DNA from: a virus
Length of the DNA: 26,134 nucleotides
Virus record (IMG/VR): IMGVR_UViG_3300030000_000047
Span: 1 to 26,134 of that record
Reading direction: 5' to 3' (one strand)
Shown here: positions 1 to 25,957 of the stretch, piece by piece
How positions within the stretch are numbered: position 1 is the stretch's first letter
Layout of the letters: every line of letters begins with the position of its first letter
The notes under the pieces: generated by a model
What the model was told of the DNA's origin: nothing
The model's input: only the letters and a program-made list of their open reading frames with translations
Database searches by the model: none
Program-made: the position numbers and the translations under genes

Positions 1-126
1 TAAAAAGGATAAGGTGTAGGTTGGTGGCTTTGGTCTTGCTTACGCACGAAAATCTAAGCGAAGATAAACATGTAGAAAGCTTATTATTTCCTTGTTTGGA
101 CGAGGGTTCGACTCCCTCCAGCTCCA
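1..126 (+). ncRNA. ssrA: tmRNA (ssrA), 3' end only
   Basis: The sequence carries the typical tmRNA 3' end: a GTAGAAAGC segment near 72-80, then GGACGAGGGTTCGACTCCC as the T-arm, and an acceptor strand CAGCTCC ending in a discriminator A at 126. The following bases are CTA, so the CCA tail is not encoded. The 5' half, including the tag reading frame, lies left of the window. tmRNA rescues ribosomes stalled on broken mRNAs, and the 3' ends of tRNA and tmRNA genes are common integration targets of phage tyrosine integrases. The integrase starting 132 bp downstream fits that. The call is firm; the exact 3' end is good to a base or two. Confidence 0.9.
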
Positions 127-127
127 C
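98..127 (+). other. probable prophage attachment site (attL) in ssrA 3' end
   Basis: The T-arm and acceptor strand of tmRNA lie directly beside a phage integrase that reads away from them. In this arrangement the crossover core normally lies inside the 3' end of the RNA gene, so the phage restores an intact gene on integration. The core limits cannot be set because the matching attR copy is not in the window; I searched the right end by eye for the GGTTCGACTCCC block and did not find it. Confidence 0.5.
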
Positions 128-137
128 TAAAAATTTC

Positions 138-258: not shown

Positions 259-1464
259 ATGTCAAGAAAGCAGACTATTATCATTTTTCCGCACCTTGTT
301 AATGGAGATGGATCACTTGATCGTGCTTGGTATGTAGAATGGAAATATCGTATTCCAGGTGACGCGGATCAAAAAAAAGGAAGGCATTATAAAGGCTTAA
401 ATATAGGCACCCGTGAGGAACGTACCAAAATAGCCAATAAAGTCATTCAGGAGAAGACTGAGTGGCTAAAATCAGGTGCATATTTGAATGGAGATATAAC
501 AAAAGTATATGCAGACGAATTGTTGTACAGAAATGAAGCTAAAATTCACGGAAAATACAGAGAGTCTGTAACTACGTTCAGAACGTATCTAAGCGCATTC
601 TTAGAGATAAAGAAAGAATCATTGAAGAATCCAAAGTCATACATGGATTTTCAATCTAAATTGCGATTATTCAATGCATGGCTCGAAAAAGAAAGGCTAA
701 ACGATCTTAATATAAGAAACATAAATCGTGAGCACATTAAACAATTTGCAATGCATCTTTCCAAAGAAGGATTAAGTAGAGCCACAATTGAAAAATATAT
801 CCAATGTGTGCATGCATTTTTCGAAAATGAGGTTGAGAATAAACGAATAGACTTTAACCCTGCAACAAACATTCCTAAAATGGGAAAAGTCGTAGATTGT
901 GCTGCAGTACCAATACACAAAAGCGATCGGGAAAAATTGAAAGAAGTTATTTCAAAATCTGACCCTCAACTTTGGTTAGCATGTGAAATTCAATATTACT
1001 GCGCAATACGACCGGGTACCGAATTACGACTAATGAAAATTCAATGGATAGACTTTGAAAAGAAGAATTTCAGGATCCCAAATATAGAAGCAAAAAATTC
1101 AACGGTAGAAATTGTTGTTATACCTGATTTTCTAATTGCCGAAATGAAAAGAATGCATCTGGATGATTACTATCATAGCCTATATATTTTTGGTAAAAAT
1201 GGATGTCCGGGTACGGAACCTTTAGGAAAAAACACGATGAGAAATCGATTTAATCGATATAGAGATTTTTTAGGCATCTCAAAAGAATACAAATTTTACA
1301 GTTGGAAGCACACCGGTGCAATTCAGCTCAGTGAGAATGGAGTAAAGGCCTATGATTTACAAACGCATTTGCGTCATAAAAGCTATACAACCACTGAGGT
1401 GTATCTGAGAAAAAGAATACCACGAAACGATAGTAGCGTAAATCAATTTACCTCTGAAATATGA
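259..1464 (+). CDS. int: phage tyrosine-type integrase
   Basis: A 401-aa site-specific recombinase that would integrate and excise the prophage at ssrA. Residues about 100-200 look like the SAM-like core-binding domain. Residues about 220-390 look like the catalytic domain, with the box I arginine at R251 in IRPGTELRLM, a candidate beta-hairpin lysine near K279, a box II region YSWKHTGA (347-354), H373 in LRHKS and the nucleophile Y382 in TEVYLR. In box II the usual HxxRH reads YSWKH, so the canonical His and Arg positions hold Tyr and Lys. I believe related Bacteroidota integrases share this, but could not check. It starts at the ATG at 259, is the only plus-strand gene, and ends at a terminator shared with the convergent methyltransferase. 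Confidence 0.93.
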   Translation: MSRKQTIIIFPHLVNGDGSLDRAWYVEWKYRIPGDADQKKGRHYKGLNIGTREERTKIANKVIQEKTEWLKSGAYLNGDITKVYADELLYRNEAKIHGKYRESVTTFRTYLSAFLEIKKESLKNPKSYMDFQSKLRLFNAWLEKERLNDLNIRNINREHIKQFAMHLSKEGLSRATIEKYIQCVHAFFENEVENKRIDFNPATNIPKMGKVVDCAAVPIHKSDREKLKEVISKSDPQLWLACEIQYYCAIRPGTELRLMKIQWIDFEKKNFRIPNIEAKNSTVEIVVIPDFLIAEMKRMHLDDYYHSLYIFGKNGCPGTEPLGKNTMRNRFNRYRDFLGISKEYKFYSWKHTGAIQLSENGVKAYDLQTHLRHKSYTTTEVYLRKRIPRNDSSVNQFTSEI

Positions 1465-5042: not shown

Positions 5043-8000
5043 TTAAATTCCAAAAGCAATCCATGTAATGCGGATATTGCCTGAGCCATTGAATATGCTC
5101 ATGCCATTTAAATTTACATTAAATAGAGTATTATTTGTGCTACCATTCGCAGAATATCCGCCAGTCGTAGCATTCTGACAACCTGTATAAAATAGGTAAG
5201 TCGTAAAGGGAGATGCAAATGAAACAGTTGCAGTCGCACCATTATTCATATCAACATATCCCCAATTAATTTTTAAACCATTGGTAAATTTTTGATACCC
5301 GTTATTACTAGGAAAATTGTGGCCACCATCATAGGCAGTACCACCAGCAGCTATTAATTGAGCCGCAGTGTATCCGCCTAAATATGATGCACTACCTGCG
5401 CTAGCCGCATACCGCACGCCTAAATCTGAAGGCTCAACCCATCCACTACCGCTGTAAGCTCCGTTATTATACACATATCTCGAATAGTCTACATAGTTAG
5501 TGCCTTCACCGCGGTGTGTTGCGTAATCATGGGTATGTGTTGTCAACGAGTAGTTTGACGGAGTGAAGTTACCATCATGCCAAACTTTTCTCCATGAATA
5601 AAAAGTACTTCCACTTCCCCCCCAACCTCTGAACCATAGATTGTCATTAGCGTATCCGCCATATATTTGAAGCCCTGTATCAATTCCTTTAGCTACTATT
5701 AGCTGTCCGTAAGCACCAGGACTATTTGGTGGATTTCCTTCTGCATTATAAAATCCTGATGTCATAATAGAGTTGAAGTCTGTCGCATATCGTGAACCAT
5801 CCTGCTTCGTTACGGCATCATTTGCGTGACCAGCAGTATTAGCATAGTTCACACTAAAGTTTGACGGGTTGTAGACATACATATTTGATGCGTCACCAGA
5901 CCCCCATAACCAAGTTGGCTGCCCACCTTGCCCAGACCAATGAAAACGCATATATGCTGAATCGTTAGCTACATATTCTGTATACGAACTGTAAGTTGAA
6001 CCGTATACACTTAAACTATTTGCAAGTCCAGTTAATCCAGTTCCCGCACCTTGGAAAGTTGTTGCCTTTAAAGTACCGGTAGAAGATAAAATTTGTATTG
6101 CATCGCACGAATACATTGGTGATGGAGACCCAGATGCCCAAACAACATTATACCACGCTCCATCAGTCCTTGAAGGATAATGAGACAATCCTGTTGCGTT
6201 ACCTGCATTATTTGCATAGTTTACTGACTGGCTACCCATATCAGTAATTCCATATCCGGCTAGTGTTGTTGGCTTGCTTCCTATTTCCGACCACGAATAA
6301 GATGGTTTAGTTGAAGCTTTAGCCCACGCGTAAACATCGGATGCAGGCAAGGATGTAGGCATAAGTTGCCATGTTTTGTCACCACGCCAATATTGGTTGG
6401 AGTATCCGGATGTAATTACTGGCTCATAAATACCCGCATGAGCATGGTCACCATAAGCTGCTAAATAATGTGTAGATCCGAAACCGGGGAATCCAACTGT
6501 AGAGGCTGGAGCTGCATTGACATCTGAGTAAGTTATTGAAATGGGTAAGCTACCATCATAAACCTTCGAGTAGCCGGCAGCTCCATTAATGGTTAGCGCG
6601 TATGTACTCTTCAACGAGTCGGGAAAATCGCGTATCTGCGATTTGCTGATGGAAATTCCGTCTGATTTATTCCATGAATTGAATGCAGCTTCAGTTTTCA
6701 AATAACCTGCATCAGCATGGTTTCCCCATCCGTAAGCAGTTTCAAGCTCTAATTTGTATGCATTTGTAAAGCGGTTTACATCGGGGACAGATTCGTAAGC
6801 AGCTGCTATTTGCGAAGCAGACATAACCGAATTAAGTAGGTCCGGATCTGATAGTTTAATATACGATGCATTGGTACCTGTAGAAGTGGCTTTGTACAAC
6901 GCCCACCGGGAATCTCCGTCGTCCTGAACAAATACAGAGGTTGGTAACTTGGTTATATTATAAGCATCCCTATCAGCTATATTGGCAACAGTAATTTCAG
7001 AATACCGGCTAACAATAAGGTCATACAGCTTTTTCAGCGTATCACCATCGGAAGTTACACCGTCTTTTAGAGCCTCAATTAATTGCTCAGCAACGCCGGC
7101 TTGTTCCGGGGTGAATCCTAGATTATTTTGTTTTCCACGAAATTCAGCGATCTCAGCTTCAGTAATAAGTCTATCTGTTCCGTTTTTGTCAACTTTGTTC
7201 AACAATTTAGCATCCGAATTGACAATGCTTTCAACCTTTGTCATATCAACCGAAAAGACGGGGTGTGCCAAATCGGTTTTATTGATCAGGATATTGGTGC
7301 CAGGTATCGGATCAATAAACTGGCCGCCGACTTCCATATTTTGGTCGTCGTCCGATACTTTTGTGATGTAACAAAATACACCATACTTTGGGCGCATAGG
7401 TATTGCAACTCCCTTTCCGATGGTATTGGTCACACCAATAGAGGCTACAGCTCCCGGTTTGGCATATATATCGTAGTCTTGGTTACCTTTTTTATGATTA
7501 GTTGACCATACAGGAGGTGCAAGCGGATTAGAATCTTGCGTATTATCCCCCGGATCGTTAGAATTTGCGAAAATATAGAAAAATGTCGGCGGTAATTCAT
7601 CCTGAGTAAGCTTATGAGAATTTGCCCCACCAGTATTACCAACTTTCCCGTAATTTTCTGTATCATCCGAAACATCAGTTGGGGTAGCTGGTTTTGCAGG
7701 GTTATAACCCATTGGCATCACATCACGATGATCTGGAATAACGATACCATTTATAGGGACAAAATTATTATTGTAGTTGCCATCGCTCAATACAAACCCG
7801 GTAGGTATATTATCCGGATCATACCATTCTATAGTCATACCTTTTTTAATACCTGATATGAATATAGTCGGCGTAACAGTGGTTGACTGTGCACGTATCC
7901 CTGTGTCGGTAGTCCCTACCCACCAGTTACCATTGGTACCTATATAAGGTATTTCCCCAGCTTGACCATGAAGTGAAGCAATCCAGTCTGATTCCGATAA

Positions 8001-8218: not shown

Positions 8219-9370
8219 TTAAACGCCTATCATATAGTTATCATTGGTTAAAATGTATTCATCCTCTTCAGTTGCCAGTATCTGGTAAATGGTGTTGATA
8301 TCAATCATGGGCGAAAAAAAAAATTCTGTAGTTACTGGTGTAACTTTCAGTGTTATGCTTTCGGGTGTCACTTGCCTCAAAGCATGCTGGTAGTTTTCAG
8401 ATGTTACCGTACATTTCTGCTTTCGCTGGTCATCAATAAACCAAATGGCGTTGGATGATAATAAGTCGCCAATAAAATAAAGTTCTTCAGTCGATTTATA
8501 GCCGGTTTCCACGGTCTTCACGTCGGTGGATGCAACACGGGGACGGGCTTTTTTAAAGTCCTGAATATCTTCGTCAAATACGTTGTAAGAATTATCATCA
8601 CCGGCAACCGGTGCTCTATTTCCTTTTCCGGTAACCTCTAAAAATTCGTAAGCACCTAAGGAATTTCGAAATTTAAGCAGATAACTTTCTTCCGAAAAAC
8701 GATCTATAATATTGATCTTTATTACTTTTATATCATTTGCACAGAAAAAAACCGTGTTGACCGATCCTGAATCAGGAAGCGATTCTAACCAAACAGGTAA
8801 ATTTACCATGCACGGAATCCCGGCAACAGCTGTTTGTAATATTAGCTTATCGCCTTTATCGGTTAATACCGATATCTGGTCGGCACTTGGAGATAGAAAA
8901 AACATGCATGCTAATTCTTTACGGGAAAGAGTCATTACATTAGAATCTGTGCGGGTAGTGAACAGGAAGTTAGCCAATGGATTCAGAAATCTGAAAGCAA
9001 ATGCATCGGTACCTTCTTTGATCAGGTATTTTTGATATTCCTTTGATAAACCACCTGGTATTACTTTACCCGTGAAACTGTAGTTTGTAGTGGCTTCGGT
9101 CACCTGATATTCCTGAACAAAATCAGTTAATCCAACCTGATGGGTGGCTGTTGCATCATAAGTAGGGCGCAATAGATTACGAAGTAAATCGGAAATATCT
9201 AACGATAGTTTATAGATATTGTCAACCTGAAATGGATAACTGGATAATTGAAAGCTTTTACCGGCAAATGTAACAGTGAAAGTTTTCATTGCATCTGAAT
9301 CACTTGTAAAAACGAAAACAATAGGGTTTTGTACAAATGAATATTCGGCCGGCGTTTTAGTTGCATTCAT
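8219..9370 (-). CDS. putative tail-tip/baseplate structural protein, 383 aa
   Basis: Not matched to a named family. A beta-rich soluble protein with the N-terminal segment YSFVQNPIVFVF, a type of start I associate with Bacteroidota prophage tail genes. It lies between the 814-aa tail protein and the fibre, so a role in the distal tail or in holding the fibre is likely. Its ATG (9368-9370) lies inside the 3' arm of a long hairpin (9363-9409), so translation may be structurally controlled. Near the end, Glu-Phe-Phe-Phe-Ser is encoded across a run of ten T (plus-strand A10 near 8314-8323), a possible slippage site. Confidence 0.72.
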   Translation of the reverse strand: MNATKTPAEYSFVQNPIVFVFTSDSDAMKTFTVTFAGKSFQLSSYPFQVDNIYKLSLDISDLLRNLLRPTYDATATHQVGLTDFVQEYQVTEATTNYSFTGKVIPGGLSKEYQKYLIKEGTDAFAFRFLNPLANFLFTTRTDSNVMTLSRKELACMFFLSPSADQISVLTDKGDKLILQTAVAGIPCMVNLPVWLESLPDSGSVNTVFFCANDIKVIKINIIDRFSEESYLLKFRNSLGAYEFLEVTGKGNRAPVAGDDNSYNVFDEDIQDFKKARPRVASTDVKTVETGYKSTEELYFIGDLLSSNAIWFIDDQRKQKCTVTSENYQHALRQVTPESITLKVTPVTTEFFFSPMIDINTIYQILATEEDEYILTNDNYMIGV

Positions 9371-9409
9371 ATATTTTGTTGATTTTGATAAACAAAAATA
9401 TATGAATGC
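9363..9409 (-). repeat. long inverted repeat covering the start codon of the 383-aa tail gene
   Basis: GCATTCATATATTTTGTT (9363-9380) is the reverse complement of the right arm at 9391-9409 except for one extra base in the latter, giving an 18-bp stem with one bulge around a 10-nt loop. In the minus-strand mRNA the start AUG of the downstream gene is in the 3' arm, so it would be paired. It sits between the 814-aa gene stop (9437) and the 383-aa gene. There is no T tract, so it is not a terminator. Confidence 0.75.
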
Positions 9410-9436
9410 TTTTCTTTATAAAAGGACAGTTGACAC

Positions 9437-11881
9437 CTATCCTATAGGGCAAACGTCGATATTCAAAACCCGATATCCGGAATCAGGTAGAATTAAATCT
9501 GGATATTTAATTCTTACATTGGCATTAAAACTCAACACGCGGGCATTGTATAGATCTAAATTCATTCTATCAATGACATCTGAGGTTACAGCAGCAAATG
9601 TTACTGAATTATGTACAAATTGATCCAGTAAAGACATTTCATCTGTCAATAGCAATCCGATTTGATCATATTTTTTTACGATTAATGATGTCGGGCGCTG
9701 ATATCCGGTTTGCTGATATGCTGCCGTCGTTCCAGACTGATAATTATAAGTAGTATCCGATGCTGGACTAATGTTGGCAATTACAGCGTCATTAAATGGA
9801 ACTGAATAGTTTACACTTTGTCCTTGTTTTGTTCCGGAAAGAACAGTCACAGATACAGTTCCATTATCAGTCACAACCTTAACAGTTATATTTGATTCTA
9901 CATAATATTGAAAATCTACTGTTATATAATAGAAGTTAACACCTTGGACAACTTTAGTATAATAACTGGTTGTAGCTAAGTTTATCTGTCTCTTTTCACA
10001 AACAAAGCCACTCCATTTATAGGTGAATATTATTTTGTCCAGATATAATTTTGTTGTGCAAAATTCGGCATCAGTAACAGTAATACCAGTATCTGAAACT
10101 TCGTACTTCAATAGCGTGGAGATAAGTGGCTGACCGCTTAATAATTTTTGTTTACTGGCATCCCAGTTAAATGCTTCATAAATTGATAAATTCACCGGAA
10201 CCCAAACCGGTTGATATGAATTACGAAGAACATCATCAAACTTTTTCCAAAATGTCTCAAAAAGTCCATTTGGCCCGTTATATACTAGGTTTATATTACC
10301 CCATGGGGTACCTGTATCATCGAAACGATGGGTGGTTCCCCAGAATACCTTTCCAAGATTTACAGCAGAATCTCCAACCCGACGACCAAAATGATAACAA
10401 AACATGATAGGGCAATCGGTTGCATTGGTTGAAGTTACAGAGCTATTTTGAGAAATAGTGTTACCAATGTAAGGAATGAAAAACACATCGGTACGCGAAG
10501 CTGTAGACCAAAGTGATGTTACATCTTTGGACGCTCCCATATCTACACGAACCATTGGTACAGCTTCGTCAGGGCTTGTAAATTCCATAGCAGTTATACT
10601 ATCGTCGATGTAATAATCGTATAAATCATCGCCCAAGTCTTCATAATCGAGTGCCCATGGTTCAGGCATCCAAATATGATAATATCGTATTTCTTTCTGA
10701 ACAAACAAGATTTGCTCAACAAAAACCTTTGGATCTGTAGATATTTGAGGATTTCCAGCTGCATATATAACCGGTAAATTTCCAAATGCAGTAAGCATTG
10801 AATTGAATGTTGTATATTTAGCTGTTTCTGTTTTATTACTATAATTGGATGTGAGCTTTACGGTTTGCGGATCTACAAAATAGACTTCCGGTGTATTCAT
10901 TATTACCTTTGACAAATCGAGATCACAAATTTCTAAGGTATCATTCCAGAATACCAGTTTTACATCTACACCATTATCAGCCAAAAAGAACTCGCAACCG
11001 TAGCGATATCTGACACTGTTCAGATAGTCATTTATCGTTTTATTGGGAACTAATTGCCCGTAGTTGATCACGCCAAGCATAATGGCATCACAAGTATTGT
11101 TCAACTCCACTATTTTTTGGAATTCAGGATATTTTGTCAGATAATCCTGATTAAGCGCATATCCGTAACTTGAAAAAATTGTATTCAGAATGTAGCTAAA
11201 CTTTAAAAATGGAGTTATCTCATATCCAATCGGAATTGTTACGGATGCTGAATCGATAGTCATTGTTCGTAAATTTCGTCCGGATAATCTATAATAAGGA
11301 AGCCCATTGGCTGAATTGGCGGTAAGTCCGGACGAAACATGATTGAGAAATCCATTTACTTCGGTAGTAGTTCCAGCATTGGCTTGTGACGTACAAACCG
11401 GGAATATATGAAAATCATCGGATATTTCTCCTGTCATTACTTTTTCCAAATAATCTATCCATGAAGCAATATTTTGTTTTTTTGTGCCAGTAAAGTCTTT
11501 TCGAATTATCTTTGAGAACAGCGTTTGCATGGACACATCCTTCATCTGGTTGTAAAAAACAGCTTCATCCAGTAGAAATGTTCCGGTAATACTTCCAGCT
11601 TGATAGGCATTTGGTCGTTGAACCTTAGTTATCTGCAACGTAGATTCTCGCTGATAAATACCAGCCTGAATAATAACCGGTATTTTAATAGCCAGTTTCA
11701 AAGCTCTATCAAATCTCTGCGGATTATCCAGAATTTCAATATTATTATCGGTATAAGGAAATGTAACAGGCAGTGATATTGTACCCTGTGTTGTAAGAAA
11801 TGGGTTTGACTTATCAATGCTTATTTTGAATTTATCCGGGATATCAAAGTTTTTGCCGGAATTTTTATCTATTATTTTCAT
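9437..11881 (-). CDS. putative tail hub/distal tail protein, 814 aa
   Basis: A large beta-rich soluble protein encoded directly after the tape measure, with an ATGA overlap (11878-11881) that implies translational coupling. The N-terminal 110 residues (KIIDKNSGKNFDIPD, then ILDNPQRFDRALKLAIKIPV) resemble the start of tail proteins in Bacteroidota prophages. In siphophages the genes after the tape measure encode the distal tail and the tail-associated hub, which is the most likely role here. No lysozyme or peptidase motif was seen. The exact family is not recognised. Confidence 0.72.
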   Translation of the reverse strand: MKIIDKNSGKNFDIPDKFKISIDKSNPFLTTQGTISLPVTFPYTDNNIEILDNPQRFDRALKLAIKIPVIIQAGIYQRESTLQITKVQRPNAYQAGSITGTFLLDEAVFYNQMKDVSMQTLFSKIIRKDFTGTKKQNIASWIDYLEKVMTGEISDDFHIFPVCTSQANAGTTTEVNGFLNHVSSGLTANSANGLPYYRLSGRNLRTMTIDSASVTIPIGYEITPFLKFSYILNTIFSSYGYALNQDYLTKYPEFQKIVELNNTCDAIMLGVINYGQLVPNKTINDYLNSVRYRYGCEFFLADNGVDVKLVFWNDTLEICDLDLSKVIMNTPEVYFVDPQTVKLTSNYSNKTETAKYTTFNSMLTAFGNLPVIYAAGNPQISTDPKVFVEQILFVQKEIRYYHIWMPEPWALDYEDLGDDLYDYYIDDSITAMEFTSPDEAVPMVRVDMGASKDVTSLWSTASRTDVFFIPYIGNTISQNSSVTSTNATDCPIMFCYHFGRRVGDSAVNLGKVFWGTTHRFDDTGTPWGNINLVYNGPNGLFETFWKKFDDVLRNSYQPVWVPVNLSIYEAFNWDASKQKLLSGQPLISTLLKYEVSDTGITVTDAEFCTTKLYLDKIIFTYKWSGFVCEKRQINLATTSYYTKVVQGVNFYYITVDFQYYVESNITVKVVTDNGTVSVTVLSGTKQGQSVNYSVPFNDAVIANISPASDTTYNYQSGTTAAYQQTGYQRPTSLIVKKYDQIGLLLTDEMSLLDQFVHNSVTFAAVTSDVIDRMNLDLYNARVLSFNANVRIKYPDLILPDSGYRVLNIDVCPIG

Positions 11882-15728: not shown

Positions 15729-15759
15729 CAAAGATAAATAGGTAAAACAGGGCGATAAA
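15729..15759 (-). promoter_or_regulatory. Bacteroidota-type promoter of the tail operon
   Basis: On the minus strand TTTA (plus 15756-15759), 19 nt, then TATCTTTG (plus 15729-15736). This fits the Bacteroidota consensus TTTG-N19-TAnnTTTG with one -33 mismatch. It lies between the terminator at 15764-15795 and the ATG at 15712. Confidence 0.7.
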
Positions 15760-15763
15760 GGAC

Positions 15764-15795
15764 AAAAAAAGCCCCGGCGAATATTCGTCGGGGCT
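15764..15795 (-). terminator. intrinsic terminator closing the accessory island
   Basis: AGCCCCGGCGA (15770-15780) pairs with TCGTCGGGGCT (15785-15795) with one wobble, around ATAT. On the minus strand it is followed by seven T (plus-strand A at 15764-15770). It ends transcription after the 61-aa gene. Confidence 0.88.
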
Positions 15796-15822
15796 TTTGA
15801 TATGAGTAAACTTTGCTTACTT

Positions 15823-17590: not shown

Positions 17591-17613
17591 TTTCCTTTTA
17601 AAGGATATGGGAA

Positions 17614-17814
17614 TTAAAACCCCATATCCTTTAAAATTCTTTTTCTTAATCCTTCCGGAAATTCTTTAGCTCCATGATAAGGAACAGGATATCTTAGTCC
17701 ATTTTTATCTTTGTAGATATAATGGCTACCTGAAGATTCTCCTGTCCACTCCCAATCACGCTCAGATTCGTCTCTGTGCTTTCGAAGCCAACGATGGAAT
17801 TCAGTATACTTCAT
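17614..17814 (-). CDS. hicA: HicA-type mRNA interferase toxin
   Basis: A 66-aa protein of normal HicA size. It has the double-stranded-RNA-binding-like HicA pattern: EFHRWLRKH at the N-terminus, GSHYIYKDKNG with the catalytic histidine H31, PVPYHGAKEFPEG in the third strand, and LRKRILKDMGF at the end. HicA cleaves mRNA without needing the ribosome and is neutralised by HicB, encoded downstream. It starts at the ATG at 17814 behind its own promoter (17848-17878), and follows sufE by 173 bp across a weak terminator, so it is uncoupled from the late operon. Confidence 0.88.
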   Translation of the reverse strand: MKYTEFHRWLRKHRDESERDWEWTGESSGSHYIYKDKNGLRYPVPYHGAKEFPEGLRKRILKDMGF

Positions 17815-23289: not shown

Positions 23290-23293
23290 ATAC

Positions 23294-23317
23294 AAAAAAA
23301 GCCCACTTTCGTGAGCT
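23294..23317 (-). terminator. intrinsic terminator between large terminase and the next gene
   Basis: On the minus strand AGCTCAC, GAAA tetraloop, GTGGGCT (one wobble), then seven T (plus-strand A at 23294-23300). It begins 18 bp past the terminase stop at 23335. Confidence 0.8.
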
Positions 23318-23334
23318 CTTAAAGGACATTATTA

Positions 23335-25693: not shown

Positions 25694-25724
25694 CAAAACT
25701 AATCAACTAATACATGTCGTTAAA
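25694..25724 (-). promoter_or_regulatory. probable late-operon promoter
   Basis: On the minus strand TTTA (plus 25721-25724), 19 nt, then TAGTTTTG (plus 25694-25701). This is the same TTTA-N19-TAnnTTTG layout as the tail-operon promoter at 15729-15759. It would give a leader of about 23 nt before the ATG at 25664. Confidence 0.55.
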
Positions 25725-25957
25725 GGACTATTCTAAGTATTAATGAGCCAAAAGCGATACATTTTTGCTATCTCAGCACCCAATATGAGCAACTATACGT
25801 AACCTGCTGATATAAATAGCCTAATCATATATCCCTTTTTTCATGCACTCTCGCATTACAAATCCAAAACTCAGCGGAACGGAGGAGACAGAGACATTTT
25901 GCGTTTTTGTTTGAGTCGTAGAAACATCATAGTTCCGATTATTAGACATTTATGTAT
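25725..25957. other. intergenic region upstream of the packaging genes, no gene seen
   Basis: About 230 bp between the upstream terminator and the late promoter. No credible gene on either strand: the only sizeable frame starts at a TTG at 25899 on the plus strand and runs through the terminator and the antisense of the partial gene. No clear tandem repeats. A purine-rich run GGAACGGAGGAGACAGAGA lies at 25876-25894. This is a candidate place for a packaging (cos/pac) or activator site, without direct evidence. Confidence 0.5.

Follow-up and report, generated by a model that had tools for sequence, protein, structure and literature searches.

A predicted phage promoter whose own sequence pairs with the start codon of the tail-region gene that it precedes

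In the window, the whole 26,134-nt stretch of viral DNA analysed here, the start codon of a 383-aa tail-region gene lies in the 3′ arm of a long hairpin whose 5′ arm and loop carry a promoter-like motif, GTCCTTT-N20-TATTTTTG (9427-9393, minus strand). We think it probable that this arrangement is a promoter-embedded start-codon lock, that is, a lock against read-through, whose promoter activity, RNA start and translational effect are all predicted. The 383-aa gene would have its own phage promoter where the 814-aa gene ends. Read-through RNA from upstream would contain both arms and fold into a long AU-rich hairpin, burying the AUG so that the 383-aa gene is poorly translated; RNA initiated at this promoter would begin in the loop, lack the 5′ arm, keep its leader largely open and be translated. 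The output of 383-aa protein would then be set by its own promoter, uncoupled from upstream read-through. Direct observations are the hairpin, the recurrence of the motif with fixed spacing, AUG-burying arms that differ among relatives and an excess of strong stems in several gene families, one of which also shows compensatory changes.

The window is part of a phage record, and 7,149 contiguous bases of it recur unchanged in a 35,091-base IMG/VR contig. Its large genes lie mostly on the minus strand, which encodes a 573-aa protein (with a terminase match that is weak and below the cut-off), a DUF6712 protein, a tape-measure-like protein of 1126 aa, the 814-aa protein (9437-11881), whose gene is the supposed source of the read-through RNA, and, directly downstream, the 383-aa protein (8219-9370); a tail-fibre-like protein of 1057 aa comes after it in the order listed. 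Neither the 383-aa nor the 814-aa protein had a match in PHROGs or Pfam, and an AlphaFold2 model of the 383-aa protein was discarded as too poor for use (mean pLDDT 46.8). The start codon of the 383-aa gene is credible, because M1 is invariant across seven aligned homologues and invariant residues follow soon after it, from position 7, ahead of the next invariant methionine (M28). Similarity between the 814-aa protein and its more distant relatives ends at about residue 613-615, leaving about 200 residues beyond it. At the start of the window, the partial 3′ end of a tmRNA gene (1-129, plus strand; Rfam RF00023, E 1.4e-23) is followed by a tyrosine integrase (259-1464, plus strand; Pfam PF00589), an arrangement that suggests a temperate phage integrated at the tmRNA gene. 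It is apparently a virus of Bacteroidota bacteria, a host phylum that we infer.

The two hairpin arms are 15 nt each, 100% complementary and separated by 17 nt. Both lie on the minus strand as read here: the 3′ arm (9363-9377) holds the AUG (9370-9368), and the 5′ arm (9395-9409) takes in part of the promoter spacer together with six bases of the -7 element. The sense (minus) strand is predicted to form these 15 pairs and five inner pairs over a one-base bulge (-17.3 kcal/mol; z -3.83), and none of 200 dinucleotide shuffles was equally stable; the plus-strand centroid has 18 pairs and one bulge (z -2.48; 2 of 200 shuffles equally stable). An earlier note on this DNA, made from the sequence alone, had described an 18-bp stem with one bulge and the AUG of the 383-aa gene in its 3′ arm, and the structure is real on both counts. 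Perfect inverted repeats of at least 15 nt with a loop of 3-60 nt occur three times in the window and never in 300 first-order Markov copies; the other two lie at 2401-2461 (18 nt) and 17596-17636 (16 nt). Rfam searched at gathering score gave no RNA element at the hairpin, the sole match in the window being the partial tmRNA. Fold and shuffles together predict that the start site lies inside an RNA helix on RNA initiated upstream.

The motif within this hairpin was absent from the earlier account. Its upstream (-33-like) element, GTCCTTT, occupies 9421-9427 (minus strand), and exactly 20 nt past it stands TATTTTTG (9393-9400, minus strand), a -7 element with the consensus TANNTTTG. According to the passages of PMC6847099 that we cite, TANNTTTG is the -7 element of Bacteroidota promoters, the primary sigma factor using TTTG at -33 and TANNTTTG at -7, and RNA of Flavobacterium johnsoniae mostly begins 4-5 nt past the -7 element. 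The motif shares with this primary-sigma (sigma-ABfr) promoter the -7 element and the expected start distance, but it differs upstream, where TTTG at -33 is absent and GTCCTTT stands in its place at exactly 20 nt. Applied to the window, the F. johnsoniae spacing predicts a transcription start at 9387-9388 (minus strand), in the hairpin loop, and hence a leader of 17-18 nt without the 5′ arm.

The combined motif occurs three times in the window against 0.02 expected, each time before an ORF on the same strand; TANNTTTG by itself is not enriched there (36 matches against 33.7). The second match, GTCCTTT-N20-TATCTTTG (15729-15763, minus strand), precedes a 135-aa gene and the tape-measure gene. 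The third, GTCCTTT-N20-TAGTTTTG (25694-25728, minus strand), precedes ORF 25664-25053; its predicted fold is weaker (-9.9 kcal/mol, a value given without shuffle comparison), and its spacer pairs with the leader just before the ATG. The spacing itself is rigid. With spacers of 17-23 nt allowed, all matches in relatives obtained by protein similarity had 20 nt, and with 12-28 nt allowed, 12 of 12 matches in five records obtained by protein similarity (the window's included) had exactly 20; a control with the reversed pattern gave one match. Four further records, themselves chosen with the N20 pattern, bring the count to 28 of 28. We take GTCCTTT-N20-TANNTTTG to be a phage promoter, a prediction that extends to its activity and to the position of its RNA start. 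The class is probably late, because, when 10 genes whose stems are strong or fairly strong were compared with PHROGs, 4 matched structural families (two head proteases, a tape measure and a neck protein).

The motif also occurs in BT-TP2, an isolated phage of B. thetaiotaomicron, before gp40, which precedes that phage's homologues of the 814-aa and 383-aa genes; in the predicted gp40 fold, TAATTTTGCC (the -7 element plus CC) pairs with GGCAAAATTA, starting at the last base of the ATG. At position 7750 of the BT-TP2 locus L141, GTCCTTT-N20-AACTTTTG immediately precedes gp42 and lies upstream of gp43, the 383-aa homologue, in a place similar to that of the window's motif and with equal spacing, its -7 element being off-consensus. 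The exact motif is absent from the B. fragilis phages B124-14 and B40-8 (nearly whole) and from part of a P. gingivalis phage, and it is therefore not universal. A scan of prokaryote genomes (at least 116 stretches) returned matches in many phyla that by their look are mostly chance, and it was set aside; the 17 usable matches gave z -1.5 in the pairing test described below.

How far would the site of the RNA start matter to translation? The passages cited from PMC6847099 describe Bacteroidota mRNAs as lacking Shine-Dalgarno sites and report that, in F. johnsoniae, structure in the start region tunes translation. The predicted fold of the window's junction weakens from -28.5 kcal/mol (130 nt) to -2.9 kcal/mol (68 nt) when the RNA begins at 9388; the AUG of the shortened RNA is still predicted to be mostly paired (unpaired 0.13), in a fold that is weak. 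A drop in mean pairing between long and shortened RNAs of 127 promoters was not used, since a shorter RNA always has fewer partners.

Relatives preserve the promoter motif, and some of them bury the AUG in a stem with other arms. Homologues of the 814-aa gene were found at ten other loci, nine of them also with a 383-aa homologue downstream; no relative was confirmed in prokaryote genomes. Junctions including the window's reduce to seven distinct ones, all seven of which keep GTCCTTT-N20-TANNTTTG, and in the five that were aligned GTCCTTT, TATTTTTG and the ATG are constant and the arms vary. The AUG is buried in a stem in four of the seven (the window, L007, L008 = L009 and L010 = L011 = L012), with arms that differ between the window and the other three, where the partner of the AUG is another part of the spacer; L008 has a G-U pair at a position where L007 has A-U. 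Among the remaining three, L003 and L005 form a hairpin between GTCCTTT and AAAGGAC, a long way upstream of the start, with T runs after it; the hairpin of L004 is in the leader and stops short of the ATG. The earlier note would have taken unconserved arms as a refutation: the sequences of the arms are not conserved, but an AUG-burying stem recurs at four of the seven distinct junctions, with hairpins of other kinds at the three others. Intergenic stretches of some of these relatives also contain repeated strings such as AATCTGTGTTAATCAGTGTAATCTGTGG and AATCACAAGAATCATAGTTCAGACA (L003 3781-4010, L004 near 240, L005 5902-6094).

Beyond this junction, we scanned viral contigs for the motif (at least 120 rows in each of three scans) and asked whether each promoter pairs with the start of its own gene better than with swapped starts of other genes. 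Set 1 comprised, among the matches listed, 168 motif matches, 112 with an ORF ATG within 45 nt, 83 of these non-redundant by shared 8-mers and 70 tested; set 2, again among the matches listed, comprised 250 matches, 129 with an ATG, 107 non-redundant and unlike set 1 by 8-mers, and 77 tested, the untested rows of both sets having a leader shorter than 9 nt or too short a flank. Set 1 includes the window and two relatives, and for these three it is not blind; the loci of set 2 were chosen with the patterns TANATTTG and TANCTTTG, and every GTCCTTT-N20-TANNTTTG in them was counted. Own pairing was stronger than swapped pairing in both sets, among the matches listed (set 1, -8.44 versus -6.93 kcal/mol, z -5.3, n = 70; set 2, -8.25 versus -7.02 kcal/mol, z -4.4, n = 77; 0 of 5,000 in each), and control regions upstream of the promoter or further into the gene gave z 0.6, -0.9, -0.7 and -0.4. 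Stems with a score of at least 10 were present in 13 of 147 promoters (among the matches listed) against 1.2 expected; they came from nine gene families, and 10 of the 13 lay outside the window's family. Pairing of -12 or stronger with the start region was found in 12 of 70 and 11 of 77 promoters against 3.4 and 5.2 expected; for codons further in, the raw counts were equally high (13 of 70 and 12 of 77), against 9.3 and 9.2 expected.

Window scans placed the 5′ partner mainly from spacer position 8 onward and in the -7 element, and the 3′ partner at about -11 to +11 round the ATG; the signal tails off weakly at +8 and +12 (z -1.8) and is absent from +16 onward. That 12 of 13 strong stems cover the ATG was not used, since a stem of at least 13 nt in a 25-nt window must do so. 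One result counts against the read-through model, which would have predicted an excess of stems near upstream ORF ends: strong stems were found in 15 of 102 promoters with a same-strand ORF end within 100 nt upstream and in 8 of 45 without (p 0.63).

These data also bear on the possibility that the inverted repeat is a DNA operator, a regulator's site at the promoter, and that its cover of the start codon is incidental. The promoter core does supply the 5′ partner, and anchoring windows on the promoter gave a signal as strong as anchoring them on the ATG (best z -7.1 versus -7.0), so this comparison did not separate action as DNA from action as RNA. However, genes differ from one another in arm sequence, and so do homologues, which would not suit an operator bound by one protein, and the register of the stem moves. 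In stems with a score of at least 9 (15 loci, with three homologues removed), G-U outnumbers A-C by 16 to 3, against 0.49 expected from composition (p 0.0017) and against 251:190 in swapped stems (p 0.012), a small test that includes the window's family and in which the swapped stems lean likewise. On these small numbers the excess favours RNA pairing, of which it is expected, and we regard an operator as unlikely.

The generality of the pairing depends on how gene families are weighted. With all 61 families other than the window's given equal weight, the excess was not significant (z -0.9; 386 of 2,000). It was carried by the 21 families with at least two members, the window's excluded (equal weight, z -4.1, 0 of 2,000; controls 0.7 and 0.8), and the 40 singleton families gave z +0.7, a split that was made after seeing the results. 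One gene per protein family, again without the window's, gave z -1.7 (n = 67; five random choices ranged from -1.3 to -3.2), and set 2 genes without a homologue in set 1 gave z -0.1 (n = 26). Sets 1 and 2 are therefore not independent at the level of gene families. On one reading, the singletons would mostly be chance matches to the motif and the recurrent families true promoters. Homologues of the window's 135-aa gene, a DUF6712 family (L043, L231) and a family led by L039 come out strongest. Because the excess is carried by families met more than once, the secure claim is one about several families and not a rule.

The 135-aa family shows compensatory changes. It has 51 loci in viral contigs, seeds included, of which 41 were processed (31 distinct; L532-L541 left out); L246, L034, L248 and L142 share 33-37% identity with the window's 135-aa protein. 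Folds read by eye put the ATG under a 5′ arm that lies in the promoter in 9 of the 31 distinct upstream regions; the window's own 135-aa promoter at 15763 is without such a stem, and a close copy in L006 folds differently. Thirteen of the 31, those with GTCCTTT at a compatible distance, were aligned; L496, L509, L511, L514, L515, L520, L521 and L531 also show GTCCTTT or the motif and stand outside the alignment. Over a 21-pair helix in the 13 aligned regions, 15 cells had two-sided changes against 8.4 in shuffles (0 of 500), slid versions of the helix reaching 8 at most, and 72.9% of cells pair against 68.4% (0 of 500), with shuffles that ignore relatedness. Two further measures were near chance: pairs with a two-sided change (7 against 5.1; 39 of 500) and further pair types (16 against 15.2; 199 of 500). 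TTTG of the -7 element is TTCG in five members, and the opposite leader base is G in three of them; in the other two (L510, L512) the pair is lost. RNAalifold returned no common fold on this mixed 13-region alignment.

Such changes weigh against a second alternative, that the hairpin is a local accident or mutational by-product, formed by quasi-palindrome templating or by an inverted duplication, with no selection to hide the start. Perfect pairing over 15 AT-rich pairs is what that process would leave, and the excess over all promoters is not significant at one count per family. On the other side, the AUG-burying stems differ among relatives, and the excess appears in recurrent families and not in control regions. 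The inverted duplication of the start region that the earlier note offered as an alternative origin leaves the differing start-complementary arms of relatives unexplained, and we judge a by-product origin improbable. More broadly, the lock may be one case of a recurrent device of Bacteroidota phages, in which, in some gene families, the spacer and -7 element of a GTCCTTT-N20-TANNTTTG promoter would have evolved as antisense to the start of the driven gene, leaving that gene translated solely from RNA of its own promoter and read-through silenced; others of the class would achieve this by a terminator in the spacer with the -7 element as its U tract. We put this generalization forward tentatively, as a possibility that could well fail.

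The mechanism that the earlier note preferred had no internal promoter: the hairpin would repress the 383-aa gene until ribosomes finishing the 814-aa gene, or a protein, opened it, and this could set the ratio of tail-tip proteins. Both genes are on one strand with a gap of 66 nt, as such coupling would have it. But the 814-aa stop codon (9439-9437) lies 9 nt before GTCCTTT and leaves 27 nt to the stem, which ribosomes terminating there should therefore not reach, and a conserved promoter motif occupies the stem and loop. We consider this mechanism as a whole very unlikely. One half of it is supported, in that folding and relatives both point to a buried AUG on RNA with both arms; release by ribosomes from the 814-aa gene is not. 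The note was half right: a hidden start, most likely freed by an internal promoter that we predict.

The principle of a hidden start relieved by a promoter is already known from phage T4. As described in the cited passages of PMC3014915, genes e, soc, 49 and I-TevI have starts that are hidden on long RNA, and late-promoter RNA of gene e lacks the 5′ part of the structure. The window would resemble all four in the predicted sequestration of the start region in RNA read from upstream, and gene e and I-TevI in a nearby upstream promoter, putative in the window, that gives RNA without the 5′ part of the structure. It differs from T4 in a host type without Shine-Dalgarno use, in its promoter (TANNTTTG) and in the gene concerned, which is one of the tail region. 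Timing as in T4 is also not the obvious purpose here: since the nearest upstream motif found in the window, at 15763, belongs to this motif class too, the device would serve dosage or insulation instead. A literature search, which left subscription journals mostly outside and is not proof of absence, returned no account of a GTCCTTT promoter class or of such use of an antisense arm. If the preferred reading is true, a control principle of a few T4 genes extends to other phages, and some neighbouring structural genes on one strand have separate outputs without Shine-Dalgarno sites, in a form readable from sequence. The motif would also serve as a promoter signature for direct mapping in infected laboratory strains.

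Termination of the 814-aa transcript, or its insulation, is a very remote prospect for the hairpin itself: it is a stem-loop at a gene end like intrinsic terminators, and L003 and L005 have T runs after a hairpin at the same junction, but it covers the AUG of the next gene, the sense strand past its 3′ arm reads AACTAAAACG without a U tract (the plus strand past its arm reads TTTTCTTTAT), and a terminator scan found none at the site, so that we rejected this reading for the sense strand, in agreement with the earlier note's view that termination is unlikely. Elsewhere, the spacers of some promoters do contain terminator-like stems. Such a stem adjoins the -7 element in 12 of 190 spacers (among the matches listed) against 3.2 in shuffles (maximum 9 in 200), a count that lends the terminator reading some support. 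Ten of the 12 are among the 34 promoters whose -7 element is TATTTTTG, with families not weighted; the T run of TATTTTTG would serve as the U tract of the spacer stem. Spacer terminators fit a need to keep read-through RNA unexpressed.

Individual examples of a terminator-like spacer stem (such as TAGCC..GGCTA) with TATTTTTG as U tract were seen in L027, L044, L057, L077, L083, L112, L119, L139 and L371. In the window, GTCCTTT-N20-TTTTTTTG (23293-23327, minus strand) precedes ORF 23295-22969 and has a spacer stem, GCTCAC..GTGGGC, with a T run; it is possibly a fourth promoter, with a built-in terminator and a departure from TANNTTTG. At 15767-15798, an inverted repeat and a minus-strand T run reach the GTCCTTT of the motif at 15763, a terminator adjoining a promoter.
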